From Streptomyces nigrescens (GTDB lineage: Bacteria > Actinomycetota > Actinomycetes > Streptomycetales > Streptomycetaceae): a stretch of DNA of 64,000 bases. The notes under the pieces are model-generated. The model searched no databases and was not told the DNA's origin. It saw only the letters and a list, made by a program, of their open reading frames with translations. Below, one piece after another: positions 32,609 to 64,000 of this stretch (positions are counted from its first letter, which is position 1; every line of letters starts with the position of its first letter). The stretch is taken from positions 3,348,001-3,412,000 of the forward strand of contig AP026073.1 of NCBI GenBank assembly GCA_024349765.1. The letters run 5' to 3'. A program made the position numbers and the translations under genes.

Positions 32609-33144
32609 CTCCCCATTCCCTGGCGTTCTATCTGGACGTCGTGACGTCGGGAACGGTGCTCGGCGCGAAGCCGGCCGATCAACCGGACCGGGTGACCGGC
32701 CTGCTGGGAACGGATTTCGCGGAGAACCGGTCCGGCCGTCACCACATGTGGCGGGACTACGGACTCGCGGAGTTCTTCTGGCAGCGGGAGTCCGCCGACG
32801 GCCCGTGGACCGGGCACCACTTCACCCTGCAGGTCCACCGGCTCGCGTACGGCGGAAAGGTCGTCAACGACGAGCTCCGGTCCAGGTACGGGCGGTTCGC
32901 CCGCAGGCTGCGGTTCGGGAAACTGCAGCGGCTGCTGGAGAAGCGCGGAACGGTGCTGAGGGAGATCCCGTCCGGTCAGGACCCCTGCTACCGCCTGTTC
33001 TGGAACCCCGGTTCATGGACGTGCGTCACTGTGATCGGCGCCAAGGAGGAGTACCGGACACCGGACGACCTGCAGGTCGGGGACGTCTGCGGCATCACTG
33101 CGCCGATGACTCCCGAAGAGGTGGCGTGGCGGGCCGCGCGGTAG
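32605..33144 (+). CDS. Uncharacterised protein
   Basis: 179 residues starting at ATG 32605, coupled to the preceding gene. Notable segments are HHMWRDYGLAEFFWQRE, HHFTLQVHRLAYGG and CYRLFWNPGSWTCVTVIG, giving an aromatic-rich alpha/beta composition reminiscent of small immunity or SMI1-like folds, though I cannot confirm a family. Its last 50 bases overlap, antisense, the end of the first gene of the NRPS cluster, so it marks the cluster's left boundary. Confidence 0.65.
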   Translation: MTPHSLAFYLDVVTSGTVLGAKPADQPDRVTGLLGTDFAENRSGRHHMWRDYGLAEFFWQRESADGPWTGHHFTLQVHRLAYGGKVVNDELRSRYGRFARRLRFGKLQRLLEKRGTVLREIPSGQDPCYRLFWNPGSWTCVTVIGAKEEYRTPDDLQVGDVCGITAPMTPEEVAWRAAR

Positions 33145-34780
33145 TGCCGGCGGCCTCGCGGTCATGGGCCGCGACCGCGGCGCGGTCCACCTTGCCGTTG
33201 GTGTTGAGCGGGAGTTCGGCGAGGTGGGTGAAGGAGCCCGGGATCATGTAGACGGGCACCAGGCGGCGCAGGAAGGTGGTCAGCTCCGCGGCCGTGGTGG
33301 GCTCGCCCGAGTAGTAGGCGACCAGGACGGAGTCCTCACCGGTCTCGCGGACCAGGGCGACCGCGTCGCGTACGGCGGGGTGGCGGGCCAACGCCGCGTC
33401 CACATCGCCGAGTTCGATGCGCTGGCCCCGGACCTTGACCTGGTGGTCGAGGCGGCTCAGGAACACCAGGGCGCCGTCCTCGACCCGGACCCGGTCACCG
33501 GTGCGGTACCAGTGGTCCCGGGTCAGCGGCGCGGACCCGTCGTGGATCACCGCGCGTTCGCCCGGGCGCCATGCCAGGAACCGGCCGATGTCGTCGGCGG
33601 GGTCCAGATAGCCGTCGAAGCGCTGACTGCCGCGGAGGCACAGCTCACCGGTCTCCGCGGGCTCGCCCGCATCGTCGAGGACGACGTGCTCCAGGTGGTC
33701 CGGCACCCGGCCGATCGGCAGCGTCCCGTTGGAACCGGCCGGCCGCAGCGAGCTGCCGCTGCCCAGCTCGTGCGCGGTGGACACGATCGCGACCTCGGTC
33801 GGGCCGTACAGGTTCCACAGCCGCGCGCCCGGTGCGGCCGCCGCCCACTGCTCGGCCTGCTCGCTGAGCAGCCGTTCACCGCCGAACATCACCCCGGCCA
33901 TCGTCGGCATCGAGTCCGGCACCAGCGCGTTCGTCCGCGCCGCGATGCTGCCGACGGACGGTACGCAGAACCAGCGGGTGATCCGCTTGGCGCTGACGAA
34001 GGCCGACGGTCGCACCACGTCGTTCGGCCGCGGGATCACCAGCGCCGCGCCGATCGACCAGGTCGTGAACAGCTCGAGCACGGCCACGTCGAAGGAGAGC
34101 TCGACGTTCTGCGAGAGGCGGTCCTCGGGGCCGAAGCCGTGCTCCTCGACCAGCCACCGAAGGGTCGGCAGGACGTTGGCGTGCCGGATCGGGACGCCCC
34201 GCGGCCGGCCGGTCGAGCCGGAGGTGTACAGGACGTAGGCGATGTCCTGGGCGGAGGTGGGTGCGGCGGGGGAGCGGGGCCCGTCCTCGGGGCCGGGGGT
34301 GCGCAGCCGGGTCAGCTCGGCGGGGGTGAGGGCGAGCACCGGCGGGAGGGGCGTACCGTCCTCCGCCGCCTGGGCGGCCAGGAGTTGGGCCGCCCGTGCG
34401 GAGTCCTCGTCGGTGACGATGACGTCCAGGTCCGTGGTGGCCGCGATGGCCAGGATGCGGGAGGCCGGGAAGGACGGGTTCAGCGGGACGACGGCGGCCC
34501 CCGCGCGCAGGGCCGCCAGATATCCGGCGTAGGCCGTCAGGCTCCGTGCGGCCAGCAGGCCGACCTTGGCCGGCCGCCCGGTGCCGCGCTCCGTGGCCGC
34601 TGCGGTCAGCCGCTGCGCCAAGCCGGCCGCCAGCCGGTCCAGTTCGGCGTAGGTGAGGACCTCGTCCCGGACCTCCAGCGCGATCCGCTCCGGATACCGC
34701 TCGACGCTCGCGGCGAACAGTCCGAAGAGGGTGGAGGCGGGCGGGTACGGCGTCGTGGGGGAGGGAGCGGCGGAGGTCAT
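33095..34780 (-). CDS. Stand-alone NRPS adenylation (AMP-ligase) protein
   Basis: 561 residues, one complete adenylation domain and no carrier domain. Core motifs: [11 protein letters not shown] (A3), SFDVAVLELF (A4), NLYGPTEVAI (A5), YRTGDRV (A7), LDHQVKVRGQRIELGD (A8) and the catalytic lysine in NTNGKVDRA (A10). A by-eye specificity code is DVLFMGLIV plus K, which I cannot match to an amino acid. It must load a carrier in trans; the free carrier at 47189-47452 is a candidate. It is the last gene of the leftward cluster operon, 67 bases after the thioesterase gene. The C terminus overlaps the convergent unknown gene. Confidence 0.88.
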   Translation of the reverse strand: MTSAAPSPTTPYPPASTLFGLFAASVERYPERIALEVRDEVLTYAELDRLAAGLAQRLTAAATERGTGRPAKVGLLAARSLTAYAGYLAALRAGAAVVPLNPSFPASRILAIAATTDLDVIVTDEDSARAAQLLAAQAAEDGTPLPPVLALTPAELTRLRTPGPEDGPRSPAAPTSAQDIAYVLYTSGSTGRPRGVPIRHANVLPTLRWLVEEHGFGPEDRLSQNVELSFDVAVLELFTTWSIGAALVIPRPNDVVRPSAFVSAKRITRWFCVPSVGSIAARTNALVPDSMPTMAGVMFGGERLLSEQAEQWAAAAPGARLWNLYGPTEVAIVSTAHELGSGSSLRPAGSNGTLPIGRVPDHLEHVVLDDAGEPAETGELCLRGSQRFDGYLDPADDIGRFLAWRPGERAVIHDGSAPLTRDHWYRTGDRVRVEDGALVFLSRLDHQVKVRGQRIELGDVDAALARHPAVRDAVALVRETGEDSVLVAYYSGEPTTAAELTTFLRRLVPVYMIPGSFTHLAELPLNTNGKVDRAAVAAHDREAAGTTARPATPPLRESSAQ

Positions 34781-34847
34781 CGGCGGGTCCTGTTCGTCGG
34801 CCGGTGTGCCAAGGGGCAGGGCGGGGGCGGGAGGAGCGCGGCGGTGC

Positions 34848-35534
34848 TCACAGCAGCTCCTCGATCGTCCGCCACACCTCGTCCCAGTGGTCCGTCAGAT
34901 ACATGTGGCCACCGGGGAACTCCGCCGTCCGGAAGGCGGCCGAGGTGAACGCGGACCAGTCCAGCCACTCGTCGGTGGGTGCCAGATGGTCGGCGTCACC
35001 GCGGAGAGCGGTGAGCGGCAACGGCAGCGGGGTGAGCGTCGCGGGGGTGTAGTCGGCCAGCATGTCCACGTCGGCGCGCATCGCCGGGAGCAGCAGCGAG
35101 CGGGCCATGGGGTCGGCGAAGATCTCGATCTCGCGGCCCGCGATGGCGGCGGCCTGGGCGGCCGCCACCTCGTCGTCGGGATCGAGGCGCTCGGCCTGGC
35201 GGTGCCGCGGGCTGGTCGAACCGCTCACGACGAGGTGGACCGGGAGCGGGCCCCCGGTCGCGACCAGGTGCTGGACGGCCTCGTAGGCCAGGATCGCGCC
35301 GAAGCTGTGCCCGAAGACGACGAACGGCTCCTTGCCGGCCGCCGCCCGGAAGCGCTCGGCGGTGCCGGCCGCGGCCTCGGCCATCGTCCGGTAGAACGGC
35401 CGGTTGAACTCCTCCTCGCGGCCCGGTACCTGCACGGGCACCGCGCGCAGCACCTCGGACTCCCGGCGCCGCCAGGGACGGTAGACGCCGGCTCCCGCTC
35501 CGGCGTAGGGCAGGCACATCAGCGTGGTCGTCAT
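34848..35534 (-). CDS. Type II thioesterase of the NRPS/PKS cluster
   Basis: 228 residues, the usual size for proofreading thioesterases. The N-terminal LPYAGAGAGVYRPW is the family signature. The nucleophile Ser77 is in GHSFGAILAYE, the acid in LRGDADHLAP, and the catalytic His in FPGGHMYL. It removes misloaded or stalled acyl groups from carrier domains. Start ATG 35534 overlaps the stop of the free condensation protein gene (ATGA). Confidence 0.92.
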   Translation of the reverse strand: MTTTLMCLPYAGAGAGVYRPWRRRESEVLRAVPVQVPGREEEFNRPFYRTMAEAAAGTAERFRAAAGKEPFVVFGHSFGAILAYEAVQHLVATGGPLPVHLVVSGSTSPRHRQAERLDPDDEVAAAQAAAIAGREIEIFADPMARSLLLPAMRADVDMLADYTPATLTPLPLPLTALRGDADHLAPTDEWLDWSAFTSAAFRTAEFPGGHMYLTDHWDEVWRTIEELL

Positions 35535-36826
35535 GCGGGACCTTCCGGGACGAGGGGGAGCGGTGGGGCGGATTCGGCGGCCAGCAGGCCGAGTTGGGTA
35601 CGGAAAGCGTCCGCCAGGCCGGGGAGGCGGGGTGCCCAGGCACCGGTCGTCGGCGCCTGGACCACGCACTTCAGGGTCCCGTCGGGCAGCTCGCACACCT
35701 GGAGTTGCACCTCGGCGACCGCGCCCACGGGCGGTACGGGGACGGTGTGCATCCGCACCGGACCCGCCGGGTGCTCGACCCGACGCCAGCTCTCGAAGGC
35801 GAACACCGCCTGGAACACCGGCATCCGGCGGCCCGCGACGGTGCGGGCGGCCCGCACGATCTCGTCGCAGGGCAGCGCGGAGCCCAGGATGGTCTCCCGG
35901 ACCGAGGCCCAGACCCGTTCGACCGCTCCGGGCGCGGACAGCTCCGGCATCCGGACCGGCACGGTGTTGATCAGACAGCCGAGTTCGTCCGCCTGCCCGG
36001 CGGAGCGGGCGACCACCGGAGTGCCCACGCAGAAGTCCGCACCCCCGGTGATCCCGGCCAGCGCCCTGCCGTACGCGGCCAGCAGCACCACGAACGGGGA
36101 GCAGGCGCAGCGCCGGGCCTCGGCGCACACCGCCTGCCAGACGGCGGGCGGGCAGGCGGTCCGCCGCTCGGCCAGGCCGGCCCGGGCCAGGGCGCGCTGG
36201 CCCGGCGCCGGGCCGTCGTCCGGCACCGGCAGGTCGGCCGCGCCCGCCAGCGCGCTCCGCCAGTGCGCGGCGAGTTCGGTGCGCTGTGCGGCAGCGGGTT
36301 CCACCGGCGCCGACCGCTCCCGCACCGGAAGGTCGGGCGCCCGGCCCTCGGCGGCCAGGCCGTATGCGCGGGCCAGGTCGGTGGCGAACACCTCCTGGGA
36401 GAGGCCGTCGAAGGCGATGTGATGGACGGCGAGGAAGACCGTGGTGCCGTCGTCGTCCGGGGCGACCGCGGCGCGGTGGACCCGGCCCGCGGCGATGTCG
36501 AAGGTGTCCGCACCGAGCAGCGCGGCGGCCGCGTCCGCGAAGGCGGTGCCGGCGGGGAGGCGCAGCGGCGGCTCGGCGACCGGCTCCGCGAGGACGGTAC
36601 GCACCACCTGTCCCCCTTCGATGACGAAGGCGGTGCGCAGCGCCTCGTGGCGGCGGGCCACGGCGGACAGCGCCGCGTCGAGCGCGGACGGATCCACCGG
36701 GCCGTCGGCGCGGACCTCGGCGAGCACCCAGTTGGCGGGGCTCGCCGGGGCGATCTGCTCACCGAGCCAGAACTGCCGCTCCAGCGCGGAGGCGGGCTGC
36801 ACCCGCGGCGCCGTGCGCTCAGTCAC
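35531..36826 (-). CDS. Stand-alone NRPS condensation domain protein
   Basis: 431 residues forming a single condensation domain from GTG 36826. The active site HHIAFDG is intact, and the flanking C-domain landmarks [11 protein letters not shown] and GTPVVARSAGQADELGCLINTVPVRM are present. As a discrete enzyme it could supply condensation in trans, which matters because several C domains elsewhere in the cluster look inactive. It could also form an ester, amide or pyruvyl-type linkage to a small amine. It overlaps the exporter gene upstream by eight bases and the thioesterase gene downstream by four. Confidence 0.9.
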   Translation of the reverse strand: MTERTAPRVQPASALERQFWLGEQIAPASPANWVLAEVRADGPVDPSALDAALSAVARRHEALRTAFVIEGGQVVRTVLAEPVAEPPLRLPAGTAFADAAAALLGADTFDIAAGRVHRAAVAPDDDGTTVFLAVHHIAFDGLSQEVFATDLARAYGLAAEGRAPDLPVRERSAPVEPAAAQRTELAAHWRSALAGAADLPVPDDGPAPGQRALARAGLAERRTACPPAVWQAVCAEARRCACSPFVVLLAAYGRALAGITGGADFCVGTPVVARSAGQADELGCLINTVPVRMPELSAPGAVERVWASVRETILGSALPCDEIVRAARTVAGRRMPVFQAVFAFESWRRVEHPAGPVRMHTVPVPPVGAVAEVQLQVCELPDGTLKCVVQAPTTGAWAPRLPGLADAFRTQLGLLAAESAPPLPLVPEGPA

Positions 36827-38123
36827 GGGCCAGCTCCTTGTCGGTGCCCGGCGCGCCGCCGCCGTCGGCGGTCCCGGGCGGCGGGGTCAGGTTGTCCATC
36901 TCCCGCAGCGCACGGTTCCGCAGCGAGACCAGGACCAGCACGACGTAGGTCGCACCGAAGGCCAGCAGGGTCCAGCGCAGGCCGATGCCGTGGATCGCCC
37001 AGCCGGCCACCAGGATGCCGACCGGCGCGGCGCTCATCGCGACGGCCGAGGTCAGCGCGAAGACCCGCCCGAACAGGGCCTGCGGCACCTTGTTGAGCAT
37101 CACCGTGGACAGCACCGGGTTGAGCGGACCGGCGGCCAGCCCCAGCAGGAACGAGATGGCGATGGACAGCACCGCGTTCGGCTGCCCGCCCAGGGCCAGT
37201 CGCAGCCCCCCGATGACCAGGAAGCAGCCCAGCAGCGTCCAACGGCGGCTGGTCAGCAGCCGCTTGCTGGCGGGACCGTAGAGGAACGTGCCGGCCACCG
37301 CGCCGCAGCCGGAGGCGGCCACCAGCCAGCCGAGGTACTGCCCGCCGCCCAGCACCTGGTCCGAGTAGACCGGCAGGATGACCGGCGTGAAGGCGTCGTC
37401 GAGGAAATTGGTGACGAAGACGAACGAGGTCATCGCGCCGATCACCGGGAGCTGCTTGACCAGCCGGAGGCCCTCGGTGAGCTGCCGGACGAAGCCCTGG
37501 CGCTCGGCGGCCGGCGCGACCGGCCCGCCCGGCACGGCGACCCCGACCAGCAGCGCGGAGAGCAGGAAGGTCGCGGAGTCCACGTACATGCCCACCACCG
37601 GACCGGACACGGCCGCGAGCAGACCACCGAGCGGCGCCCCGACCAGCAGACCGAGCCGCGGGGCGCCCTGCATCCAGGAGTTGGCGCTCTCCAGCCGCAC
37701 CCCGGCGCGGTCGGAGAGTCCCTTGAGCAGGCTCTGCCGGGCGGCACCGGTCGGTGTCGAGCCCAGACTGCGCACGAACAGCAGACCCATCAGCACCGGC
37801 AGGGCGAGCCCCACGGTGTCGTTGAGCAGTGGGATCAGCCCGATGACGGTGCCCGCGAGCAGGTCGCAGACCACGCTCATCCGCTTGCCGCCGATGCGGT
37901 CGATCCAGACCCCGCCGACCGCGCCCGCGAAGATCAGCGGCAGCGTGTTGGCGAAACCCGCCAGGCCGGTCGAGACGGAACTGCCGGTGACGCCGAGCAC
38001 GTACAGCGGGATGGTCACCACCGTCACCGCGTTGCCGAACGACGACAGGTAATGCGCCAGCAGCAGGACCACCAGCGGACGGCGTTCCCGCACCGTGGCG
38101 TCGGGCCCGGGGGGCGAGGTCAT
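36819..38123 (-). CDS. MFS exporter of the NRPS/PKS cluster
   Basis: 434 residues with twelve predicted membrane helices, of the EntS/macrolide-efflux type within the MFS (opening LLLAHYLSSFGNAVTVVTIP; motif A WIDRIGGKRM; TPTGAARQSLLKGL in the middle loop). Position between assembly-line genes, with overlapping starts on both sides, makes export and self-resistance for the cluster product its likely job. Start ATG 38123 overlaps the upstream stop by ATGA. Confidence 0.9.
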   Translation of the reverse strand: MTSPPGPDATVRERRPLVVLLLAHYLSSFGNAVTVVTIPLYVLGVTGSSVSTGLAGFANTLPLIFAGAVGGVWIDRIGGKRMSVVCDLLAGTVIGLIPLLNDTVGLALPVLMGLLFVRSLGSTPTGAARQSLLKGLSDRAGVRLESANSWMQGAPRLGLLVGAPLGGLLAAVSGPVVGMYVDSATFLLSALLVGVAVPGGPVAPAAERQGFVRQLTEGLRLVKQLPVIGAMTSFVFVTNFLDDAFTPVILPVYSDQVLGGGQYLGWLVAASGCGAVAGTFLYGPASKRLLTSRRWTLLGCFLVIGGLRLALGGQPNAVLSIAISFLLGLAAGPLNPVLSTVMLNKVPQALFGRVFALTSAVAMSAAPVGILVAGWAIHGIGLRWTLLAFGATYVVLVLVSLRNRALREMDNLTPPPGTADGGGAPGTDKELARD

Positions 38124-39895
38124 CGAATCTCCTGTTCCGTACGGCGGGTGCCGGCGAAGAGCTGCTCCAGGTACTCCTCCGAGACCCCGGCCCGCCCCGG
38201 GACGTCGGCGTCCGCGATCGCGGCCCGCGCCAGTGGGTTGCCGCGTGGCAGCAGCAGCTCGGTGAGGGCGGAGAGGGTGGTGTGCTCGGTGATGTCCCGG
38301 GGCCCGGCGGTGAAGCCCCGTGCCGTCAGCAGCCGGGCGAGCCGCACGGCCAGCAGCGGTGTGCCGCCCCGGTCGGCGAACGCGTCCCGCGGGTCCGCGG
38401 AGGGCACGTCCAGCGCCTCGCACCAGGCCGCGGCCACCAGTTCGGCGGCGCGCCCGGCCGGGCTGGGGAGCGGGGTGTCGGGCGCGGTGGCGAAGACCTC
38501 GACCAGTTGCAGCAGCCGCCGCGCGAGCCGGTCGATGGTCTCCGGCTCGAAGAGCGCGGTCCGGTACTCGAAGCGCCCGTAGACCAGGTCGCCCAGATGC
38601 CACCAGGCGACCGTCGCGTCCATCGAGGAGATCCCCTCGGGCACCGCGTTGGCGTAGACGGTGGCGCCGGGGACCGAGTAGGACACCGTCTCGGCGAGGT
38701 CGAGATGGACGAGCATGGTGCGCAGCAGCGGATAGCTGTGCACCGACCGCTCGGGGGCGACCGCCCGGACGATCTCGCCGAACGGCGTCTCGTGGTGCGC
38801 GGCGACCTCGGCACCGGCGGCCTGGGTGGCGGCCATGAAGTCGTGCGGGGTCGGATTCTCCGGCAGCCGGATCCGCAGCGGCACGTTGGTCAGCAGGAAG
38901 CCCACCAGGTCCTGGACGGCCGGCTCGCCGCGGGTCACGCTGGGCACCCCGAGGAGGACGTCCCGCTCGCCGCTCTCCTCGTACAGCAGCGCCGCGTAGA
39001 CGGCGGCCATCGCGTTGGCGACCGTGCTGCGGGCCTGCTTGGCGCGGGCGATGAAGGCGGCGGCGGTCCCCTTGTCCAGGACGAAGTTGTACTGCCGCCC
39101 GGCGCGGTCCTCGGTCTCGGGGGAGTGGTCGTACGGCAGCAGCGGCCGGTCCGGGAGGTCCGCCAGGTAGCTGCGCCAGAACGCCCGGTGACGCTCGCCG
39201 TGCTCGCTGTCGAAGTACTCCCGCTGCCACTGGGCGTAGTCGCCGAACTGCACCGGCAGGTCGGGCAGTTGGGGTTCGCCGCCCTCCCGGACCGCCCGGT
39301 AGACCTCCAGCAGCTCGCTGTTGAGCCGTACGTAGGACCACTGGTCGGTGAAGGAGTGCGGCATGGTCTGCACGATCTGGTGGTCACCGCCACCGAGGTC
39401 GGCCACCCCGATCCGCAGCACCGGGTCACGGGCCAGGTCGAACGGGCGCCGGACGTGCTGCCGGATGAACTCCGCCCGGCGCCGCTCCCGTTCGCCGTCC
39501 GGCCCGGCCGACAGGTCGGTGAAGGTGAGGTCGGCGCCCCGGTCCGGGTGCAGCCGCAGCACCGGCCGGGTGCCGTCCGTCTCGATGGCCGAGCGCAGCA
39601 GCTCGTGCCGGCCCACCACGACGGCCACCGCCTCGGAGAAGGCCGACCGGTCGAACTCCCCGAGGAAGCGCAGCCCGAACCCCAGGGTGTAGGTGGTGGT
39701 GCCGGGATAGAGCTGGTCGAGGATCCACAGCCGTTCCTGGTCCATGCCCACCGGGAAGGTGTCCCGCGGCCCGGGCCGGGGTCGGAGCGGGCGCTTGCCG
39801 GAGCGCTGCTGCGACAGCTTGGCCAGGAGGGCGGCCCGCTGCTCGGGGGCCAGTGCGGCGAGCCGGGCCGCGAGCGCCGACTCCGCGCCGCTCAT
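38120..39895 (-). CDS. Atypical condensation domain fused to a degenerate carrier domain
   Basis: 591 residues. An N-terminal segment LAARLAALAPEQRAALLAKL resembles the linker found before C domains. Residues about 45-470 are a condensation domain whose HHxxxDG motif reads PHSFTDQ (about 179-185): the second His and the Asp remain, while the first His and the Gly are lost. Residues about 480-555 resemble a carrier domain, but the phosphopantetheine site reads RGGTPLLAV, with Pro513 where the attachment Ser should be. The carrier therefore cannot be charged. The protein may be a docking or structural condensation partner, or a trans-acting ester/amide synthase. ATGA overlaps on both sides. Confidence 0.85.
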   Translation of the reverse strand: MSGAESALAARLAALAPEQRAALLAKLSQQRSGKRPLRPRPGPRDTFPVGMDQERLWILDQLYPGTTTYTLGFGLRFLGEFDRSAFSEAVAVVVGRHELLRSAIETDGTRPVLRLHPDRGADLTFTDLSAGPDGERERRRAEFIRQHVRRPFDLARDPVLRIGVADLGGGDHQIVQTMPHSFTDQWSYVRLNSELLEVYRAVREGGEPQLPDLPVQFGDYAQWQREYFDSEHGERHRAFWRSYLADLPDRPLLPYDHSPETEDRAGRQYNFVLDKGTAAAFIARAKQARSTVANAMAAVYAALLYEESGERDVLLGVPSVTRGEPAVQDLVGFLLTNVPLRIRLPENPTPHDFMAATQAAGAEVAAHHETPFGEIVRAVAPERSVHSYPLLRTMLVHLDLAETVSYSVPGATVYANAVPEGISSMDATVAWWHLGDLVYGRFEYRTALFEPETIDRLARRLLQLVEVFATAPDTPLPSPAGRAAELVAAAWCEALDVPSADPRDAFADRGGTPLLAVRLARLLTARGFTAGPRDITEHTTLSALTELLLPRGNPLARAAIADADVPGRAGVSEEYLEQLFAGTRRTEQEIR

Positions 39896-41022
39896 CGGGC
39901 ACGCTCCGCGGGGAGGCAGTCGAACAGGGCGGGCAGCGCGGCCAGTACGTCCTCGGTGGGCAGCCCGAAGTCCACCAGGAAGCCGACCTCGTCGGCGCCC
40001 GCCGTACCCAGCAGACCGAGCACCTCCGCGGCCTTGCCGGGCGAGCCGAGCAGCGAGGGGCCCTGCAGGAAGTTGAGGTACGCGCTCTCCAGCAGCACCG
40101 CCTCGTCCTCGCCCGGCGCGGTCGTCTGACTGCGGTAGGCGCGCAGATAGCCGTGCATCGCGGAGCGCAGGTAGTCCTCCAGATCGGGCCGGTCGCTGAC
40201 GTAGGCGTGCACCATCACCACCACGTCACCCTCTCCCGGGTGCCCGGCCTCCCGCCAGGCCGCGCGGTAGCGGGCGATGTTCTCCCGCAGTACCGGCAGC
40301 GTCTGGCCGAGCAGTGCGGTCATCACGCCGCAGCCGGCCCGCGCGGCGGCTTCGAAGGTCTCGCCGTTGCCGGCCGAGGTCAGCCAGATCGGGAGCTCCG
40401 GCTGCACCGGGCGGGGACCGGTGCGGACCTCGGCCGTGCCGCCCGCCGTGGTGGGGTGGGCGAGCGTCTCGCCCCGCCAGTGCGCCCGCACCTGCTCGAT
40501 GATCCGCACGGTGTCCGCGCGCCGCCCGGCGTAGTCCGTACGGGCCAGCACGAAGTCGTCGGGGTGCCAGCCGCTGGCGAACGAGATGCCGGCCCGGCCG
40601 TCCGACAGGTTGTCGACCACCGCCCAGTCCTCCGCGATCCGGGCCGGGTGGTGCAGCGGGGCGGCCACGCTGCCGGCCCGGATCCGCAGCCGTTCGGTGC
40701 GCACGGCGACCGCGGCCGCCAGCACCGACGGGTTCGGCGAGTGCCCGCCGAAGTCCACGAAGTGCCGTTCCGGCAGCCAGACGGCGTGCAGCCCCGCCGC
40801 GTCCGCCCGCTCCGCCGCCTCCAGGACGAAGCGGTAGTACTCGCGGGCCGAGACCGTGTCCGCGCTGGCGAAGAAGTACAGGCTCTGCCGGGCGGGCGCG
40901 CCGCCGGCCGACCCGTCCGCGGGCGGGGTGCCGGTACGGGCGGCCCGGCGCCGCATCTGCTGGCCGAGGACGCGGCGCTGTTCCGGCGTCAGGGCCGCCA
41001 GCCGCTCGGAGAGGTCGCTCAC
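39892..41022 (-). CDS. Luciferase-like flavin monooxygenase of the assembly-line type (MupA/Atu3640 group)
   Basis: 376 residues. After a short N-terminal helix (LSERLAALTPEQRRVLGQQM) comes a bacterial luciferase-like TIM barrel: LYFFASADTVSAREYYRFVL, AVWLPERHFVDFGGHSPNPS, SFASGWHPDDFVLA and PIWLTSAGNGETF. These mark the natural-product LLM subgroup usually embedded inside PKS/NRPS proteins. It would use reduced flavin and O2 to hydroxylate a carrier-bound intermediate, often at the alpha or beta carbon or on nitrogen. Here it is a separate gene directly after the PKS module. ATGA overlaps on both sides imply tight coupling. Confidence 0.88.
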   Translation of the reverse strand: MSDLSERLAALTPEQRRVLGQQMRRRAARTGTPPADGSAGGAPARQSLYFFASADTVSAREYYRFVLEAAERADAAGLHAVWLPERHFVDFGGHSPNPSVLAAAVAVRTERLRIRAGSVAAPLHHPARIAEDWAVVDNLSDGRAGISFASGWHPDDFVLARTDYAGRRADTVRIIEQVRAHWRGETLAHPTTAGGTAEVRTGPRPVQPELPIWLTSAGNGETFEAAARAGCGVMTALLGQTLPVLRENIARYRAAWREAGHPGEGDVVVMVHAYVSDRPDLEDYLRSAMHGYLRAYRSQTTAPGEDEAVLLESAYLNFLQGPSLLGSPGKAAEVLGLLGTAGADEVGFLVDFGLPTEDVLAALPALFDCLPAERAR

Positions 41023-44000
41023 TGGACACCTTCGATCTCGTCGAGCAGCCGCAGGAGTTCGGCGTCGTCCCGGCCGGCGGCGAGCTCCTCGGCGCGGCGG
41101 ATGAAGGCGCCGAGGTCGGAGTGCTCGTAGAGGTCACCGAGCGCCACGCCGAGCAGCAGCGTGTCGTTGACCACCGTGAGCAGCTGTGCGGCCTGCAGCG
41201 ACGTGCCGCCGAGGGTGAAGAAGTTGTCCGACGGGCCGAGCGGTTCGCCGCCGAACGCCTCCTGCCAGATGGCGGTGATGGTGGTGGCGAGGTCGCTGCC
41301 GGTCTCTTCCTCTCCGGTCTCTCCGGTGTGCTCCGCCGGGGCCGACGGTTCCCGCGGCGGTGCCGGCTCGCGGAGGACCGCGGCGGCGGTGGCGGGCCGT
41401 TCGTGGGGCAGCGCCCCCGGTGTCGCCTCGATCCAGTGCCGGGTGTGCGCGAACGGGTAACGCGGCAGCGGAGCGGGGGAGGTGACGTGGGGCACGTCGA
41501 AGTCCACCGGGCAGCCGGCCGCCCAGAGCCGCGCCAGCGCGTCCTCGTGGGCCTGCGCCTCGTCGTCACCGGAGTGCCCGAGCAGCTCGATGATGCCCGG
41601 CGGGTGCGCCATGCCCAGCAGGCGGGCGGTCTGCCGTACGGGGTTGGTCAGCGCCCGGCCGCCGTGGATGCCGACGACCGCGGCGGGGCGGCCCGCCAGC
41701 AGCGTCCGGACACCGTCGGCCAGCCGCACGGTTCCGCGCAACTGCGCCGCCCAGTAGGTCGGGTCGGTGGCCTGCTCGGCGGTCAGCTCCGCGCCGGTGA
41801 GGTTGGAGAGGACGGTCAGCCGGGGGGCCGACAGCGGCACGGTGGCGAGGAACTCCGCGAACCGGGCAGCGGCCTCCTCCATCGCGCGGGAGTGGAAGGC
41901 GTGCGCGGTCTCCAGCCGTCGCGCGGTGAGCCCGCGCCCGGTGCAGCGCCGCTCCAGCTCGGCGACCGTGTCCGGGTCGCCGCCGAGCACCGTCGTCTCC
42001 GGGCCGTTGACGCCGCAGACGTCGGCAGGGAGCCCGGCGGCGAGGTCGCGGGCGGCCTCCTCGTCCAGCGGGACGGCGAGCATCGCCCCGGCCGGGGCCC
42101 GGCCCATCAGCTCTCCGCGCCGCACGACGGCCGCCGCCGCGTCCTCGACGCCGAACACCCCGGCGTACGCGGCCGCGGTCAACTCGCCGACGCTGTGGCC
42201 GAGCAGCGTGCCCGGCCGGACGCCCCGGCGCTCCAGCCGCCACAGGTGCGCCAGACCGACCACGAAGAGCAGCGGCTGCACCACCGCGGTGTCCAGCAGC
42301 CGCGGGTCGTCGCCCGCCCAGGTCTCGAAGCCGCGCAGATCGGGGCCGCCGGCCCGCAGCACGGCGGCGTACAACCGGTCGAGGTCCGCGCCGAAGCGGG
42401 GGTCGTCGGCGGCCGACGCAGCGGTGCCGGTCAGGCGGATGCCCTGTCCGGGCAGCAGCACGGCCACCGGGGCGTCCGCCACGGCCGGTGGCGTGTCGGC
42501 CCGTTTCGCGGTCTCCAGCAGCCACTGCCGCAGCCGTTCGCGGGCGGCGGCCGGGTCGGTGGGCAGGGCGACGGCGGCGCGGTGGGCGAGCTGGCGCCGG
42601 CCGTGCCACAGGGTGCCGAGCACACCGGGGAGGCCGGCCCGTGCGCCGGGGCCGTCGAGCCAGTCGGTCAGATCCCTGGCCTTGTCGCGCAGGGCCTGCG
42701 GGGTCGCGGCCGACAGCACGGCGACCGGAGGCCGGACGCCCTGGGCGGGGGCGGGTTCCGGGAGGGGGTCGGCCGGGGCGAGGATGACGTGCGCGTTGGT
42801 GCCGCCGAAGCCGAAGGAGCTGACCGCGGCCCGGCGCGGGACCTCGGCGCTCCAGGTCGCGGCCGCGCGCGGCAGGAAGAACCGGGCCGCGCCGAGGTCC
42901 GCGTCCGGACCGTCGCCCGGCTGGGAGGCGACCGGCAGGAGCATGTCGTGCTGGAGTGCCAGCACGGTCTTGATCAGGCCGAGGACCCCTGCCGCGCTGT
43001 CGGTGTGGCCGATGTTCGGCTTCACCGTGCCGATGGCGCAGCGGGGGGCGGCGGTGCCGGTGCCGTAGACCTCGGCCAGCGCGGCCAGTTCGACCTGGTC
43101 GCCGAGGACGGTTCCGGTGCCGTGCGCCTCGATGTAGCCGATGTCCGCGGGGGAGAGCCCGGAGACCTCCAGGGCCTCGCGGAGCACCTCGGCCTGGCCG
43201 CGCGGACTGGGCGCGGTCATGCCCATCCGGTCGGCGCCGTCGTTGTTGACCGCGCTGCCGATGATGTGCGCACGGGCCCGGCCGGGGCCGTCGGCGAGAT
43301 CGGCCGACCGGCGCAGCACCACGATCCCCGCGCCGCTCGACGGGACCGTGCCCCGGCTGCCGACGGTGAAGCTGCGGCAGCGGCCGTCGGGCGCGTAGAT
43401 GCCGCCCTCGGGCCCGTCGTGCTCGGGCCGTTCGACCGGGAAGACGGTGATCCCGCCCGCGATCGCCACGTCGCATTCGTAGGTGAGCAGGCTGCGCACC
43501 GCCTGATGGACGGCGACCAGGGAGGTGGAGCAGGCCGTCTGCACGGTCATGCTCGGGCCGGTGAGGCCGAGCCGGTAGGAGAGCGCGGTGGCGAGGAAGT
43601 CACGGGAGTTGCCGAGCATGATCTGCTCGGTGCCGTGGGCGCGCACGGTCCGCTCGTCCGGCAGGACGTTGCGGTGCAGGTAGATGTCGGGGCCGCCACC
43701 GAGGTAGACGCCGACCCGGTTGCCGGCGCGCTGGGTGTCGAGGCAGGCGTCCTCCAGGGCCTCCCAGACCAGTTCGGCGATCACCCGGTGCTGGGGGTCG
43801 GTCAGCGCCGCGTGGGCGGGGGCCATGCCGAACAGCTCGGCGTCGAACTCGGCGAACCGGTCGATCTGCCCGCTGAGCAGTCTGCCGTTCCGGGTCTGTT
43901 CCCCCTTGGCCGCCGGCAGCGCGACCTCGCCCTGGGCGAGTCGGGAGAGGAAGGTCTCCGGGTCCGATGCGCCGGGGGCCCGCAGGGACAGCCCCACCAC

Positions 44001-44027
44001 GGCCACGGCATTGTCCAGCTCCGTCAT
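41019..44027 (-). CDS. Type I PKS module KS-AT-T
   Basis: 1002 residues from ATG 44027 with Shine-Dalgarno GGAAGGAG. KS (about 5-425): Cys166 in QTACSTSL, EAHGTGTVLGD and KPNIGHTDSAAG complete the triad. AT (about 500-800): Ser612 in GHSVGE, and HAFH at 709-712, the motif of malonyl-CoA-specific ATs. A carrier domain near 900-975 has Ser943 in FTLGGTSLQA and looks more PCP- than ACP-like. No KR, DH or ER is present, so it would add a C2 unit leaving a beta-ketone, unless the neighbouring luciferase-like enzyme modifies it. It lies 70 bases after the C-A-T NRPS gene and probably elongates that enzyme's product. Confidence 0.93.
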   Translation of the reverse strand: MTELDNAVAVVGLSLRAPGASDPETFLSRLAQGEVALPAAKGEQTRNGRLLSGQIDRFAEFDAELFGMAPAHAALTDPQHRVIAELVWEALEDACLDTQRAGNRVGVYLGGGPDIYLHRNVLPDERTVRAHGTEQIMLGNSRDFLATALSYRLGLTGPSMTVQTACSTSLVAVHQAVRSLLTYECDVAIAGGITVFPVERPEHDGPEGGIYAPDGRCRSFTVGSRGTVPSSGAGIVVLRRSADLADGPGRARAHIIGSAVNNDGADRMGMTAPSPRGQAEVLREALEVSGLSPADIGYIEAHGTGTVLGDQVELAALAEVYGTGTAAPRCAIGTVKPNIGHTDSAAGVLGLIKTVLALQHDMLLPVASQPGDGPDADLGAARFFLPRAAATWSAEVPRRAAVSSFGFGGTNAHVILAPADPLPEPAPAQGVRPPVAVLSAATPQALRDKARDLTDWLDGPGARAGLPGVLGTLWHGRRQLAHRAAVALPTDPAAARERLRQWLLETAKRADTPPAVADAPVAVLLPGQGIRLTGTAASAADDPRFGADLDRLYAAVLRAGGPDLRGFETWAGDDPRLLDTAVVQPLLFVVGLAHLWRLERRGVRPGTLLGHSVGELTAAAYAGVFGVEDAAAAVVRRGELMGRAPAGAMLAVPLDEEAARDLAAGLPADVCGVNGPETTVLGGDPDTVAELERRCTGRGLTARRLETAHAFHSRAMEEAAARFAEFLATVPLSAPRLTVLSNLTGAELTAEQATDPTYWAAQLRGTVRLADGVRTLLAGRPAAVVGIHGGRALTNPVRQTARLLGMAHPPGIIELLGHSGDDEAQAHEDALARLWAAGCPVDFDVPHVTSPAPLPRYPFAHTRHWIEATPGALPHERPATAAAVLREPAPPREPSAPAEHTGETGEEETGSDLATTITAIWQEAFGGEPLGPSDNFFTLGGTSLQAAQLLTVVNDTLLLGVALGDLYEHSDLGAFIRRAEELAAGRDDAELLRLLDEIEGVQ

Positions 44028-44097
44028 GCCGGTTCTCCTTCCATTGCGTACGAGCTGCTCGGTTGCGGTGTGCCCGGCGGGGCCGGCAGCGGGGGCC

Positions 44098-47452: not shown

Positions 47453-47593
47453 GGAACAGCCCCCGAATTCTATGAGTCCGAATTCCCCGCTTCTGCGCCA
47501 CGTTGTGTCACGGGGCGTGTCACTGGGGGGTGGTCGACTCCATCCAGTTTTCACGGCCGCAGGGCTCAATTACCCGCCTCAACGGTTTGGTTG

Positions 47594-50955: not shown

Positions 50956-58044
<7,089 letters not shown>

Positions 58045-58079
58045 CGGGCCGTGCCGCCGACCACCCCACAGGAGCCCAC

Positions 58080-59323: not shown

Positions 59324-59341
59324 CCCACGAGGGACCCTTCC

Positions 59342-61816
59342 CTACACCGCGGCGTCCGGCCCGGGTGACCGCTCCGCGCCCCCGGGCCCACCCGCCGTGG
59401 CCTCGAGATGCGCGGCCAGCAGCCGCAGCGTCGAATGCCGGTACAGGTCCACCAGGGTGATCTCGGGGACCTGCGTCATGCTGCGCAGCGCCTTCATCGA
59501 GTCGCCGCCCAGCCGGAAGAAGTCGTCGTCCCGCCCGATCGCCTCGACCCCCAGCACCTCGCGCCAGGCAGCGGCGATCCGCTCCTCCCACGGGCCGCTC
59601 GGGGCGGCGCCCGCGGGTACGGCGCCGTCCCGGTCCCCGTCGTGCGGCGACGGGGCCGCTGGCAGCGCCTTGCGGTCCAGCTTGCCGTTCGGGCTCAGCG
59701 GCATCGCGGACAGCACCAGCAGCGTGCCGGGCACCATATGGGCCGGCAGCCGGGTCGCCAGCCGGTCGCGGATCTCGTCCGGGTCGAGCACCTCGCCCTC
59801 GCGCGGGACGACGTAGCCGACCAGGACCGGTGCGCCGGTGGCATCGGGCCGCGCCGCCACCGCCGCTTCCTTGATCCGGGGGTGGTCCCGCAGCACGGAC
59901 TCGATCTCGGTCAGCTCGACCCGCAGCCCGTGAATCTTGACCTGGAGGTCGGTCCGGCCGAGCAGCTCGATCAGCCCGTCGGCGTCGCACCGCGCCAGGT
60001 CGCCGGTGCGGTACAGCCGCTCGCCGGACACCGGGCCGTACGACCAGTCCAGGAACCGCTCGGCGGTGAGCTCGGGCAGGTCCAGATAGCCCACGGCCAG
60101 GCCGTCGCCCGCCAGGTACAGCTCGCCGGTCACGCCCGGCGGAACGGGCTGCAGCGCCTCGTCCAGGAGGTAGGTCCGCTGATTGGCCATCGGCCGCCCG
60201 TACGGGATGCTGGTCCAGCCGGGGTCGGTCGCCTCGACCTCGTAGAGCGTCGAATAGATCGAGGCCTCGGTGGCCCCGCCGAGCGAGACGAACCGCGCGT
60301 CCGGCGCGAACTCCCGCGTCCGGTCGGGCATCTTCACGGGGATCCAGTCCCCGGCGAGCATGATCAGCCGGAGCGAGCGCAGCGACGCGGGGCCGTCCGC
60401 GGCGGTCGCGTCGAGGTGGTCCAGCACCAGCTCCAGCAGCGCCGGGGCGGTGTTCCAGACGGTCACGCCGTGCTCCGCGGCCAGTTCGGCCCAGTGCGCG
60501 GGTTCCTTGGCGCGGCCCGGCGCCGGGAGCACGAGGGTGCCGCCGGCCGCGGTCATGCCGAGGAACTCGTAGACCGACATGTCGAAGCTCGGCGAGGACA
60601 GCCCCAGCACGCTGTCGCCGGGGCCGACGGCGAAGCGGGTGTTGAGGTCCGCGATGTTGTTGAGCACGCCCCGGTGGCGCAGCGCGATCGGCTTCGGCCG
60701 TCCCGTGGACCCCGAGGTGTGGATCACGTAGCAGAGGTTGTCCGGGCCGGCCACGGGCTCGAGGTCGTCCTCCGGCCGCTCGGCCAGGGCCGCCCCGTCC
60801 CGGTCCAGCAGGATCAGCTGGCCCTGCACCACGGAATCCGCGCCGCTGCCCAGAGCGTCGGCGAGCCCGGTCCGGCTGATCAGGGCCACGCACGACGCAC
60901 CGGAGATCATCGTGGTCAGCCGCGCCCGGGGATACCCGGGATCCAGCGGCACATAGGCCCCGCCGGCCTTGAGCACCCCGAGCATGGCGACGAGCAGCTC
61001 GGGGGAGTGGTCGAGGAAGAGGCCGACGCGGTCGTCCGGGCCGACGCCCAGGTCCCGCAGATGGCGGGCGAGCCGGTTGGCCGCGGCATCGATCTCCCGG
61101 AACGTCCGCCGGGCCGTCCCCTGGACCACGGCGACGGCCTCGGGTGCCTGCCGGGCCCGCTCCTGGAACACCTCGTGCAGACAGGCACCTTCGTGGGGCA
61201 GTGTCACGGCGGTGTCGTTCCACTCCAGCAGGACGCGGCGCTGCTCGGCCTCGGTGAGCAGGGCGAGCTGCTCCAGCGGCCGGTCCGGGTGGCACACGGC
61301 GTCCGTGAGCAGATGCCCGTAGTGGCTGAGCATCCGCTGCGCCGTCGCCGGGGCGAAGAGCCCGTCGTCGAAGTGGAGGGCGGCCCACCGGGAGCCCGTG
61401 TCCGCCGCCGGCAGGGCGAGTTCGGCCTCGTAGGGCCGGGGGTCGCCGTCCACCGGGGGCGCGCCGATGCGTACGCCGAGCCGGGCCGGCGCCGTCCCGG
61501 GGTGCGCCACGGCGCCGGCCTCACCCGCCAGCCCGCGCAGCGTGCTCCCGCCGGTGACGGAGAAGCGCAGCAGCGCCTCCTTGCCGCCTTCCCGGCCCAC
61601 CCGGAACTCGACCTGGTTCTGCCCGGAATAGCGGTACACCAGCGCGGCGAATCCGGCCAGGAGCACGTTCTCCGGGGTGGTCGCACACGAGGCGGCCAGC
61701 GCGCGGACCGCGTCGTCGTACAGCCCGGGAATCTCCTGGCGCACCACTGCCGTACACGCCGGTGCATCGACGCCACGAGGCCGGTCCGTGGGGAGTTGGG
61801 CGGCATGGGAGGACAA
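59342..61816 (-). CDS. NRPS with truncated condensation domain: (C)-A-T, cysteine-like specificity
   Basis: 824 residues from TTG 61816, supported by CAGGAG seven bases ahead. The first 200 residues match only the C-terminal half of a C domain (ATTPENVLLAGFAALVYRYS onward) and contain no HHxxxDG. The A domain (about 215-700) has [20 protein letters not shown], the unusual A5 [18 protein letters not shown] and NGKLDRK. The T domain has Ser773 in LGGDSMKAL. A5 of the GGATEASI type is common in cysteine-activating A domains, and the by-eye code DMYNMALIY plus K resembles the Cys code at six of nine positions. It probably loads Cys or an analogue as a starter or trans-supplied unit. Confidence 0.9.
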   Translation of the reverse strand: MSSHAAQLPTDRPRGVDAPACTAVVRQEIPGLYDDAVRALAASCATTPENVLLAGFAALVYRYSGQNQVEFRVGREGGKEALLRFSVTGGSTLRGLAGEAGAVAHPGTAPARLGVRIGAPPVDGDPRPYEAELALPAADTGSRWAALHFDDGLFAPATAQRMLSHYGHLLTDAVCHPDRPLEQLALLTEAEQRRVLLEWNDTAVTLPHEGACLHEVFQERARQAPEAVAVVQGTARRTFREIDAAANRLARHLRDLGVGPDDRVGLFLDHSPELLVAMLGVLKAGGAYVPLDPGYPRARLTTMISGASCVALISRTGLADALGSGADSVVQGQLILLDRDGAALAERPEDDLEPVAGPDNLCYVIHTSGSTGRPKPIALRHRGVLNNIADLNTRFAVGPGDSVLGLSSPSFDMSVYEFLGMTAAGGTLVLPAPGRAKEPAHWAELAAEHGVTVWNTAPALLELVLDHLDATAADGPASLRSLRLIMLAGDWIPVKMPDRTREFAPDARFVSLGGATEASIYSTLYEVEATDPGWTSIPYGRPMANQRTYLLDEALQPVPPGVTGELYLAGDGLAVGYLDLPELTAERFLDWSYGPVSGERLYRTGDLARCDADGLIELLGRTDLQVKIHGLRVELTEIESVLRDHPRIKEAAVAARPDATGAPVLVGYVVPREGEVLDPDEIRDRLATRLPAHMVPGTLLVLSAMPLSPNGKLDRKALPAAPSPHDGDRDGAVPAGAAPSGPWEERIAAAWREVLGVEAIGRDDDFFRLGGDSMKALRSMTQVPEITLVDLYRHSTLRLLAAHLEATAGGPGGAERSPGPDAAV

Positions 61817-62172: not shown

Positions 62173-63369
62173 ATGAGCACCGACATTTCGCCGGCCGCGC
62201 TCGACGCCGTCGAACTGCACCACCTCGCACAACGGGACGGCGAGAAATGGGCCACGGCCGGTGAGGGCATGCTGTCCTCCTGGGTCGCCGACATGGACTT
62301 CCCGACCGCACCCGCCATCCGTGAGGCACTGATACGCCGCGCGGACGGCGATCTCGGCTACCCCACGTGGTTCGACGAGAGTCAGGGCGGCCCGCTCGGG
62401 GAGGTCTTCGCCGCCCGGATGCACCGCAAGTACGGCCACCGGCCCGAACCCACCCACGCCCGGCTGTTCACCGACATCAACCAGGCGATGCTCGCCACGC
62501 TGCAGGTCGCCACCGACCCGGGCGACGCCGTCCTGCTGCACACCCCGGCCTGTCCGCCGTTCGTCGACGTCATCGAGAAGATCGGTCGCCGGCCGCTGAC
62601 CGTGCCCGTCGAAGAGGGGCCGGATGGCTGGGGGTTCGACCAGGAGCGGATGGAACGCGCCGCGGCGGACGGGGACGTGGGGCGGTGCCGGGTGCTCTTC
62701 CTGGTGAACCCGCACAACCCCACCGGCCGGGTCTTCCGCCGGGACGAACTGGAGGCGCTGGCCGAACTCGTCCTCCGGCGCGATCTGTTGGTGATCTCCG
62801 ACGAGGTGCACGCGGACCTGACCCACGCCCCGCACCGGCACCTCCCCTTCGCCTCGCTCGGCCCGGAGATCGCCGCCCGCACCATCACCCTCACCTCGGG
62901 CAGCAAGGCGTTCAACCTCGCCGGGATCCGCTGCGCGCTGGCCCACATCGGCCCGCCGGCCGTCCGCGAGGCCGTCGACGCCCGGCGCGGGCTGCTCTTC
63001 GGACAGGTGGGAGTGCTCGCGGTCGAGGCACTGAAGGCCGCCTGGACGGCCGGTGACGACTGGCTGGCCGACGTCATGGCGGTCCTGGACCGCAACCGGC
63101 GGCGGCTGGCCGAGCGGCTGCCCCACGGGGTCCGCTGCCGCACCCCGGAGGCCACCTTCCTGGCCTGGCTCGACTGCCGGGGCCTCGGGCTCGGCGCCGA
63201 CCCGATGCCGTTCTTCCGCGACCAGGCGAAGGTGCTGCTCTTCTCCGGCCCGGCCTTCGGTGCCGACGGCGAGGGATTCGTCCGGCTCAATTTCGGTACG
63301 TCACCCCAGATCCTCGAAGAGACGCTGGCGCGCATGGACACCGCGCTGCGCCGGCACCGCGGGGAATGA
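62173..63369 (+). CDS. MalY/PatB-type PLP-dependent C-S lyase
   Basis: 398 residues from ATG 62173 with AGGGGGAAGAG ahead; a longer in-frame start was rejected. Family features of the MalY/PatB branch of aminotransferase class I/II: WVADMDFPTAPAIREAL near the N terminus, FLVNPHNPTGRVF, ISDEVHADL, and PLP Lys245 in SGSKAFNLAG. These enzymes cleave the C-S bond of cysteine S-conjugates or cystathionine, giving a thiol, pyruvate and ammonia. Divergence from a cysteine-like NRPS suggests it frees a thiol from a cysteine-derived adduct in this pathway, as GliI does in gliotoxin synthesis. An ordinary aminotransferase is the main alternative. Confidence 0.88.
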   Translation: MSTDISPAALDAVELHHLAQRDGEKWATAGEGMLSSWVADMDFPTAPAIREALIRRADGDLGYPTWFDESQGGPLGEVFAARMHRKYGHRPEPTHARLFTDINQAMLATLQVATDPGDAVLLHTPACPPFVDVIEKIGRRPLTVPVEEGPDGWGFDQERMERAAADGDVGRCRVLFLVNPHNPTGRVFRRDELEALAELVLRRDLLVISDEVHADLTHAPHRHLPFASLGPEIAARTITLTSGSKAFNLAGIRCALAHIGPPAVREAVDARRGLLFGQVGVLAVEALKAAWTAGDDWLADVMAVLDRNRRRLAERLPHGVRCRTPEATFLAWLDCRGLGLGADPMPFFRDQAKVLLFSGPAFGADGEGFVRLNFGTSPQILEETLARMDTALRRHRGE

Positions 63370-63427
63370 AACCCCGGTCCTGGGCGCCCGGGCCGAAAAC
63401 GACAATGTGGACAGTTTTTCTTTGTCG

Positions 63428-63455
63428 TTGACGCGCGCCGGGCCGGGGCTAGTAA
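63428..63455 (+). promoter_or_regulatory. Candidate promoter for the right-edge gene
   Basis: TTGACG (63428-63433) and TAGTAA (63450-63455) with a 16-base spacer, in an AT-rich pocket after the C-S lyase stop. It would give a leader of about 185 bases before the ATG at 63647. Confidence 0.5.
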
Positions 63456-63646
63456 AGTTCGGAAAGATCACGGGGGACAAAGTCGGGGGACTTTCCCGGG
63501 AGTTCAGACGCCCATGCGCAGAACGCCCCGGCACCATCGCGAGAATGCCACCCGCTCTTTTTGTGGCGTCCCACCGGATCCCTTGCGTCACCGATGTCCG
63601 CGTTCCGGGCAAAGACCCCGGGAGAAATCGGAAATCCGGAGGACTG

Positions 63647-64000
63647 ATGGCCACGCACGCCATGGAAAAGGTGTATTCGGGGAACGGCACCGTACGGCTG
63701 CACCGGGCCGGGGACGTGACCGACCCCGACGCCTTCCGGGAACGACGCCGCACCCGCAGAAAACGATTGACCGAGTACCTGGCCGACGGCCGGGCGGAAA
63801 CCCGCTATTTCCCGGTGCTGTCCGTACTGGCACCGGTCATGACCCAGTCCGAGGGCGAAATCACCTACCCGGGCGACCCGATGTGCCTCTACACGGCGCT
63901 GAGCCTCGCCGTGCACCGGGCGGTGGCCGACGCCGGCCCGCTGGCGGACGCCGAGCACTACACCGATCTCGCACCCGAGTGGACCCGGTTCCCCTCCAAG
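63647..64000 (+). CDS. Unidentified protein, cut by right edge
   Basis: At least 118 codons from ATG 63647, preceded by GGAGGACTG, with typical codon bias, open to the window end. The translation begins MATHAMEKVYSGNGTVRLHR, then a basic stretch (RERRRTRRKRLTEYL), YFPVLSVLAPVMTQSEGEIT and LYTALSLAVHRAVADAG. No signal peptide is seen. I do not recognise the family. It has its own promoter-like element and probably belongs to the cluster, since it follows the C-S lyase on the same strand. Confidence 0.75.
   Translation, partial: MATHAMEKVYSGNGTVRLHRAGDVTDPDAFRERRRTRRKRLTEYLADGRAETRYFPVLSVLAPVMTQSEGEITYPGDPMCLYTALSLAVHRAVADAGPLADAEHYTDLAPEWTRFPSK

Follow-up and report, generated by a model that had tools for sequence, protein, structure and literature searches.

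What does a gene cluster make when its catalytic domains are spread over many separate proteins? The question is raised by a 64-kb stretch of DNA from Streptomyces nigrescens (contig AP026073.1, positions 3,348,001 to 3,412,000 of the forward strand; hereafter the window), part of a 9.33-Mb genome in two contigs. Its right half carries a hybrid nonribosomal peptide synthetase/polyketide synthase (NRPS/PKS) cluster, recognised as such in the initial annotation, which had called its architecture highly dissociated. Our own gene calling, followed by Pfam and NCBIfam profile scans of the window proteins, bore this out: adenylation (A), condensation (C), carrier (T), ketosynthase (KS) and acyltransferase (AT) domains with catalytic motifs lie together with genes for product release and export. 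Each called cluster protein (33095-63369) has a best Pfam E-value of about 5e-27 or lower, the weaker scores being those of carriers and of C-terminal subdomains of A domains, and a chance origin of the domain matches is excluded. The best explanation, to which we give a probability of about 0.45, is that the cluster makes and exports a short modified peptide by the steps proposed below. Its gene content suggests that one residue of the product is oxidised and lengthened and that another is a cyclopropane amino acid.

A PKS module and a luciferase-like monooxygenase in one operon

Four minus-strand genes form one operon, in the order C-A-T (44098..47187), KS-AT-T (41019..44027), a stand-alone luciferase-like monooxygenase (LLM, 39892..41022) and a C-T protein without an A domain (38120..39895), the domains being assigned by Pfam. 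The motifs of the KS-AT-T protein are intact in the window (CSTS, EAHGTG and NIGH in the KS, GHSVG...HAFH in the AT, GGTS in the carrier), and by motif its AT is of the malonyl type; in some relatives strict patterns failed on one or more motifs. The LLM belongs to the MupA/Atu3671 family (TIGR04020, 366.8 bits, above the curated cut-off of 244.45) and its closest solved relative is PuwE (6ket, 2.5e-80). The family is described as one of alpha-hydroxylases, some of which also shorten the chain (PMC8739492).

A search for the LLM in 392 genomes of the same genus, with a match threshold of E 1e-110 or better, found a close copy in ten, the window's own included (65-100% identical), and each of the nine other copies is part of a variant of the cluster. 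The ten form a single clade (100/100) in a tree of 31 LLMs, and this clade joins the LLMs of loci L124, L125 and L127, from clusters with separate KS genes, at a support of 89/93, under the 95/80 level.

We also fetched 20 loci around other LLM matches, a selection among the matches listed. KS-AT-T, LLM and C occur in succession in five of these: as a fused AMP-binding-KS-AT-T-LLM-C-A-T protein in the Streptomyces loci L118, L119 and L121, and as successive genes in L124 and L125, the PKS of L124 having an added ketoreductase (KR). In L120 a KS-AT gene neighbours an LLM-C-A-T gene in reversed order, and in five loci (L114-L117, L123) the LLM is embedded in an A domain. L127 is discussed below; the remaining eight are placed otherwise, L131, which adjoins a lone KS-like gene, among them. 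The earlier statement that module order cannot follow gene order is not supported for the operon, given these fused proteins and gene successions; it may apply to the rest of the cluster. The L124 locus (G085:C101) encodes a line of A-T with a Thr-like code, KS-AT-KR-T, a stand-alone LLM and C-A-T-TE (TE, thioesterase) with a Gly code.

Comparison with the ichizinone and PuwE systems

The closest described system that we found is the ichizinone (ich) cluster of Streptomyces sp. LV45-129 (PMC12144821). As described there, it has in common with the window a major facilitator superfamily (MFS) exporter, a stand-alone LLM dependent on flavin mononucleotide (IchD, proposed to oxidise the alpha carbon), a minimal PKS protein with a carrier, separate NRPS module proteins and a type II TE. 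It also has one module bearing an epimerization (E) domain, as do two of the three architectures defined below (types II and III). The two clusters differ in that the ich PKS is a KS-acyl carrier protein without AT, whereas the window has KS-AT-T, and in that ich has four NRPS modules, a cyclase-like gene and an MbtH gene. MbtH is lacking in the window, and three MbtH genes lie elsewhere in the same genome. Conversely, no cytochrome P450, pyridoxal phosphate (PLP) enzyme, radical S-adenosylmethionine (radical-SAM) or 2-isopropylmalate synthase (IPMS) gene stands in the ich gene table, and the window cluster has all four.

One of the 20 LLM loci, L127 in genome G075, has the ichizinone gene order. 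MbtH, MFS, A-T-C-T, LLM, C-A-T-E, C-A-T-TE, C-A-T, KS-T and TE match ichA-ichI (PMC12144821, Table 2) save for genes between MbtH and MFS and the flanks. This Streptomyces locus extends over L134, L127 and L135 (G075:C3:669001-729000). The A domain of its module next to the KS retains Asp235, as expected for an alpha-amino acid substrate. Where the ich-ordered locus has an A-T-C-T starter and an E module, the window has free A, C and T proteins and a C-T with an altered carrier, and E has been lost. The window LLM falls with that of the ich-ordered locus in the moderately supported clade mentioned above, the tree covering this locus but not IchD; the comparison with ich itself was made by published description.

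The beta-amino acids of the ichizinones are Ala, Abu (2-aminobutyrate) and Phe lengthened by one carbon, with the alpha carbon oxidised. The authors' proposal for these involves acyl-CoA starters together with a transaminase encoded outside the cluster; their ichH mutant was not rescued by beta-amino acid feeding, for which they suggest uptake or protein-contact causes (PMC12144821). In a simpler route, an amino acid would be loaded by an NRPS module, extended with a malonyl unit and oxidised by the LLM, one carbon being lost. Because the residues are only one carbon longer, a carbon loss is required if malonate is the extender.

PuwE (PMC4219810; PDB 6ket) offers a second parallel, an elongation-only PKS module followed by an LLM-type monooxygenase and then by an NRPS module; it differs in that a single fused protein also includes an aminotransferase and starts from a fatty acyl unit. 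There the PKS module, aminotransferase and monooxygenase give a 3-amino-2-hydroxy acyl chain (PMC4219810). This parallel bears on an alternative to carbon loss, in which the window LLM would hydroxylate the alpha carbon and the product would hold a statine-like 4-amino-2-hydroxy-3-oxo acid. In its favour, PuwE, the palmerolide enzyme and other LLMs of the family have been described as hydroxylating the alpha carbon within PKS/NRPS modules (PMC8739492, PMC4219810). Set against this, a member of the LLM's nearest clade stands in the ichizinone gene order, and the published ichizinone residues are one carbon beyond Ala, Abu and Phe. We regard hydroxylation without loss as somewhat unlikely, and net homologation as the more probable chemistry.

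Three architectures among Streptomyces

The nine relatives were gene-called, one of them, G432, having been fetched in part (20 kb). LLM, KS-AT-T, C-T and a C-A-T with a Gly-type code occur in all nine, and so does the Thr-type C-A-T (partly read in G432). Type I comprises the window, G253, G196, G392, G306 and G074. The cluster genes of G253 (S. sp. NRRL S-337, stretch identical to L048) are 91-97% identical to those of the window, with syntenic flanks. G196, G392 (S. caeruleatus NRRL B-24802, stretch identical to L051) and G306 have in common with the window the run of genes that begins with the free A and ends with the radical-SAM gene, plus IPMS, which in G392 and G306 adjoins the free A, at the opposite cluster end. 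G074 is without PLP, radical-SAM and IPMS genes and has a serine hydroxymethyltransferase (SHMT)-like gene. In type II, represented by Streptomyces sp. BHT-5-2 (G370, NZ_CP081497.1), a C-T-E protein replaces the altered C-T, the bimodule and P450 are missing, IPMS is present, and there are extra genes for an A-T protein, a second TE and SHMT-like, short-chain dehydrogenase/reductase and KASIII-like proteins. The type III clusters (G020, G424, G432) all have C-T-E, LLM, KS-AT-T, two C-A-T and MFS; G020 and G424 also have a free A, a free carrier, a TE and an ATP-grasp gene, G432 being fetched in part. A free C, a bimodule and a truncated C-A-T were not found in the type III stretches read. MbtH lies within the clusters of G074, G392 and G306 only. 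The window cluster is thus no isolated system but one of a family with at least three Streptomyces architectures, and its core parallels the ichizinone cluster; its parts are neither as scrambled nor as unique as earlier described.

Free-standing domains and eroded partners

All parts named in the initial annotation are present by gene calls, Pfam and alignment, including the free carrier and the dead carrier, and Pfam together with reading of the open reading frames (ORFs) supports a free A, a free C and a free carrier. The free A (33095..34780, minus strand; Pfam) has orthologs in eight of the nine relatives, the ninth being partly fetched, and the free C (35531..36826, minus strand; Pfam), with an intact HHIAFDG motif, in six of nine. 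The free carrier was overlooked by the gene caller and has no Pfam match in the window. It is encoded in the minus-strand ORF 47189-47569, from which we read an 87-residue protein (47192..47452) bearing FLENGGDSFRAV; it is kept in eight of the nine relatives (the ninth being G432, of which 20 kb were fetched), and the BHT-5-2 copy has a PP-binding match at 1.4e-5. An MbtH protein had been considered for the small ORF between 47187 and 47777 and was ruled out, this ORF being the carrier.

Erosion is seen in two in-line domains. In the C-T protein the carrier motif is GGTP instead of GGTS, with Pro in place of the Ser in all six type I clusters by alignment, and the four C-T-E orthologs retain the Ser. 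A full-length E domain is present in BHT-5-2, G020, G424 and G432, that of G020 matching PvdL and the bacitracin and tyrocidine synthetases in the PDB; none was seen in the type I stretches searched. Since the window C-T protein ends in a C-terminal tail similar to those of the C-T-E proteins, it looks like a C-T-E without E. The second eroded domain belongs to the bimodule (50956..58044, plus strand; Pfam), described earlier as C-A-T-C-A-T-TE. All these domains are present, yet its active content was overstated: the first C has HRxxxD for HHxxxD in five type I clusters, while that of the sixth, G196, has PRxxxD, so that none of the six keeps the second, catalytic His. With catalytic residues missing from the C-T carrier and the bimodule's first C, the free-standing partners probably act in trans.

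Such losses could also mark a decaying line that makes little or no product, given that GGTP and a non-HH first C occur in six of six type I clusters and that none of them shows a full-length E. We consider this very improbable. The losses are common to C-T proteins 78-96% identical to the window's, with long ORFs throughout, and therefore fit an inherited, still working state better; moreover, the window has intact motifs in its other carriers and in the KS, AT and TE domains.

Proposed supply genes for an unusual amino acid

Near the right edge of the window lie a truncated C-A-T (59342..61747, minus strand; Pfam; code DMYNMALIY), a PLP enzyme (62173..63369, plus strand; aminotransferase class I/II by Pfam, PatB-like by NCBIfam) and the 5' part of a gene for a B12-binding radical-SAM enzyme (63647..64000, plus strand; Pfam/NCBIfam, CxxxCxxC). 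Of the C domain the truncated protein keeps a C-terminal remnant, matching profile positions 405-454 only, at 2.5e-6 and 26.9 bits against a Pfam cut-off of 30.6.

The PLP and radical-SAM genes are adjacent in all nine genomes that have the close radical-SAM form, always in NRPS clusters: the window, G253, G196, G392, G306, S. lydicus NRRL ISP-5461, S. sp. LUP30, Saccharomonospora halophila and Embleya hyalina. S. lydicus is 96% identical to G196 and LUP30 93% to G306 in DNA over most of the shared stretch, and these two are therefore near relatives and not fully independent cases; in Saccharomonospora halophila and Embleya hyalina the pair stands in other NRPS clusters. The close radical-SAM form was found in five of 382 same-genus genomes and, among 394 genomes of the class, in the own genome only. 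No PLP gene of this kind was seen beside 11 remoter radical-SAM matches (about 1.4 kb each side; six over longer stretches), nor a radical-SAM gene of this kind beside 25 remoter PLP matches (up to 1.5 kb each side; seven longer). A neighbouring pair, Orf29/Orf30, is described as making norcoronamic acid (MeACC) from S-adenosylmethionine (PMC7277169). Like Orf29/Orf30 and Swb7/Swb6 (PMC7277169, PMC4052310), the window pair consists of a B12 radical-SAM gene beside a PLP gene of aminotransferase fold in an NRPS cluster, although the host assembly line is unrelated to that of the window in the parts described. By this analogy the two enzymes look like a MeACC pair that would supply the truncated C-A-T. 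Another B12 radical-SAM homolog (52-53%) lies at G000:C1:5.615-5.655 Mb (L056, L057), with no PatB-like partner, in an NRPS cluster that also has MbtH, 4-hydroxyphenylpyruvate dioxygenase (HPPD)-like, TauD-like and type III PKS genes.

The initial annotation had called the PLP enzyme a C-S lyase. PatB-like it is, but it scores 302.7 bits on TIGR04350 (PatB), under the cut-off of 340, and so probably does another job. If it were a true C-S lyase, its substrate would be a Cys residue or conjugate that the truncated C-A-T activates, and the radical-SAM enzyme would methylate something unrelated. The TIGR04350 match itself points that way, as do its best solved relatives, which after one aminotransferase are PatB and other C-S lyases, and the code DMYNMALIY resembles Cys codes. 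Besides the score below the cut-off, the constant pairing of close PLP forms with the radical-SAM gene argues against it, and the G074 and BHT-5-2 clusters have neither gene but carry one for an SHMT-like protein. The lyase role therefore seems to us unlikely.

This substitution extends to the A domain. The truncated C-A-T occurs in seven of the ten clusters, five with the PLP/radical-SAM pair and the code DMYNMALIY, two (G074, BHT-5-2) with the SHMT-like gene and the code DMYNMGLIH; the three type III clusters without it have neither pair nor SHMT-like gene in the stretches read (one partial). SHMT-like enzymes make alpha-methylserine in other pathways, and in both amino acids, MeACC and alpha-methylserine, the alpha carbon would be quaternary.

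An IPMS gene follows the radical-SAM gene outside the window (L001:5595-7385) and lies within the cluster in five of nine relatives. The own genome has three full-length copies, the other two 53-56% identical to that of the cluster. A housekeeping role was dropped as sole explanation, given that the gene accompanies the cluster and that the genome has two further full copies. These same facts could indicate a self-resistance copy, the product inhibiting leucine biosynthesis. That is improbable in our judgement: the enzyme might just as well provide the free A with leucine, and it was not found in the stretches read of G074 and the type III clusters.

A proposed pathway

Substrates were predicted from A-domain codes by the usual code-to-substrate relations. 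The free A code DVLFMGLIV would then be aliphatic (Leu/Val/Ile-like), the code of the 44098 C-A-T (DFWNIGMVF) Thr-like, that of the C-A-T at 47777..50926 (plus strand; Pfam; C motif HHAVFDE), DILQFGCVW, Gly-like, and the first bimodule code, DFWNVGMVH, Thr; no substrate was assigned to the second, DVFSVAIVY.

Synthesis would start at an initiation pair, the free carrier receiving an aliphatic amino acid from the free A. The C-A-T at 44098 would add a Thr-like residue, to which the KS-AT-T protein at 41019 would join one malonyl unit, with no reduction. Oxidation of the alpha carbon of the carrier-bound beta-keto chain would fall to the LLM at 39892, and the C domain of the C-T protein would pass the oxidised chain on. 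Most likely the residue would thereby gain one carbon net and become an alpha-keto-beta-amino acid residue, as the ichizinone structures suggest for one member of the LLM's nearest clade; alternatively, the alpha-hydroxy-beta-keto unit may be retained. The Gly-like C-A-T and the bimodule, with Thr and the unassigned residue, would complete the chain and its TE release it. The radical-SAM and PLP enzymes would convert S-adenosylmethionine to MeACC, to be activated by the truncated C-A-T, and free-standing partners would stand in for the dead C-T carrier and the dead first C.

Several points weigh against this proposal. Substrates and product are predictions from sequence, and for the codes the A domains were compared with a stretch of PheA and not run through a predictor. 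The order KS-AT-T, LLM, C was not seen in 15 of the 20 other LLM loci, so that the LLM family has several uses; the clade joining our LLMs to those of L124, L125 and L127 is below the support level given above, and the nearest single LLM, that of L124, follows a PKS carrying a KR. No class III aminotransferase was found in the Pfam scans of the window, though PuwE-type modules carry an aminotransferase. G075 is ichizinone-like by gene order only, with differing flanks and A codes unmatched to Val/Leu/Val, and ichizinone itself has a PKS without AT and, according to its authors, another beta-amino-acid route. The best-named matches of the PLP enzyme are C-S lyases, and the MeACC assignment follows from arrangement and family only.

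Cluster limits, remaining genes and literature

The cluster comprises 16 genes, free carrier included, over about 34 kb. Its ends are fixed at 33095 and L001:7385, since G196, G392 and G306 have the cluster genes and unrelated flanks. As the initial annotation had expected, it continues past the right edge: the radical-SAM gene (645 aa called) ends 1584 bases and IPMS 3385 bases beyond the window. The remaining genes, all assigned by Pfam, encode a type II TE with the motif GHSFG (34848..35534, minus strand), the MFS exporter (36819..38123, minus strand) and the P450 (58109..59323, plus strand). Outside the cluster, a 431-aa frame at 25811-27106 (minus strand) has a ferritin-like domain at its C-terminal end and an N-terminal part without Pfam match, which may be a start-site artefact. 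A region of the second contig (G000:C2:59-97 kb) holds very long NRPS reading frames of 6259 and 8109 aa.

Bleomycin, detoxin/rimosamide, zwittermicin, belactosin/cystargolide and epoxyketones were dropped as candidates on their general domain sets, which do not appear to fit. For rotihibin, also known from S. caeruleatus, two NRPS proteins have been described, one of five modules and one of a single module, in a report whose main text does not contain the word 'luciferase' (PMC8552735); it therefore belongs to another cluster. Literature searches by strain names found no report of this cluster among the titles listed, and nothing was found for combined IPMS/radical SAM/C-S lyase or MupA terms, for alpha-ketoamide terms or for a poststatin biosynthetic gene cluster; the words 'luciferase' and 'monooxygenase' are absent from the main text of PMC12858407. 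Like the initial annotation, which matched it to no named pathway, we found no named product for the cluster, and to call this conserved cluster its best candidate for an undescribed system was reasonable.

Significance

Extended to all relatives, the proposal would be that a dissociated family makes peptides with alpha-keto-beta-amino warheads, homologated by one carbon, by a minimal KS-AT-T and LLM, alternates between the MeACC pair and an SHMT-type enzyme as supply for one residue with a quaternary alpha carbon and, in the window's branch, uses free domains in trans for the dead in-line carrier and C, a generalisation that we put forward tentatively and rate as rather unlikely in full. Oxidised, homologated residues are a motif of protease inhibitors. 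If the reading of the operon is correct, looking for a minimal KS-(AT)-T with a separate LLM next to it would be a simple rule for finding peptides with such residues, and the ichizinone beta-amino acids could arise by a route different from that proposed by their authors. The product may be a new scaffold. The three architectures, in which in-line domains have been lost beside free-standing partners, amount to a natural experiment in the disassembly of NRPS modules.

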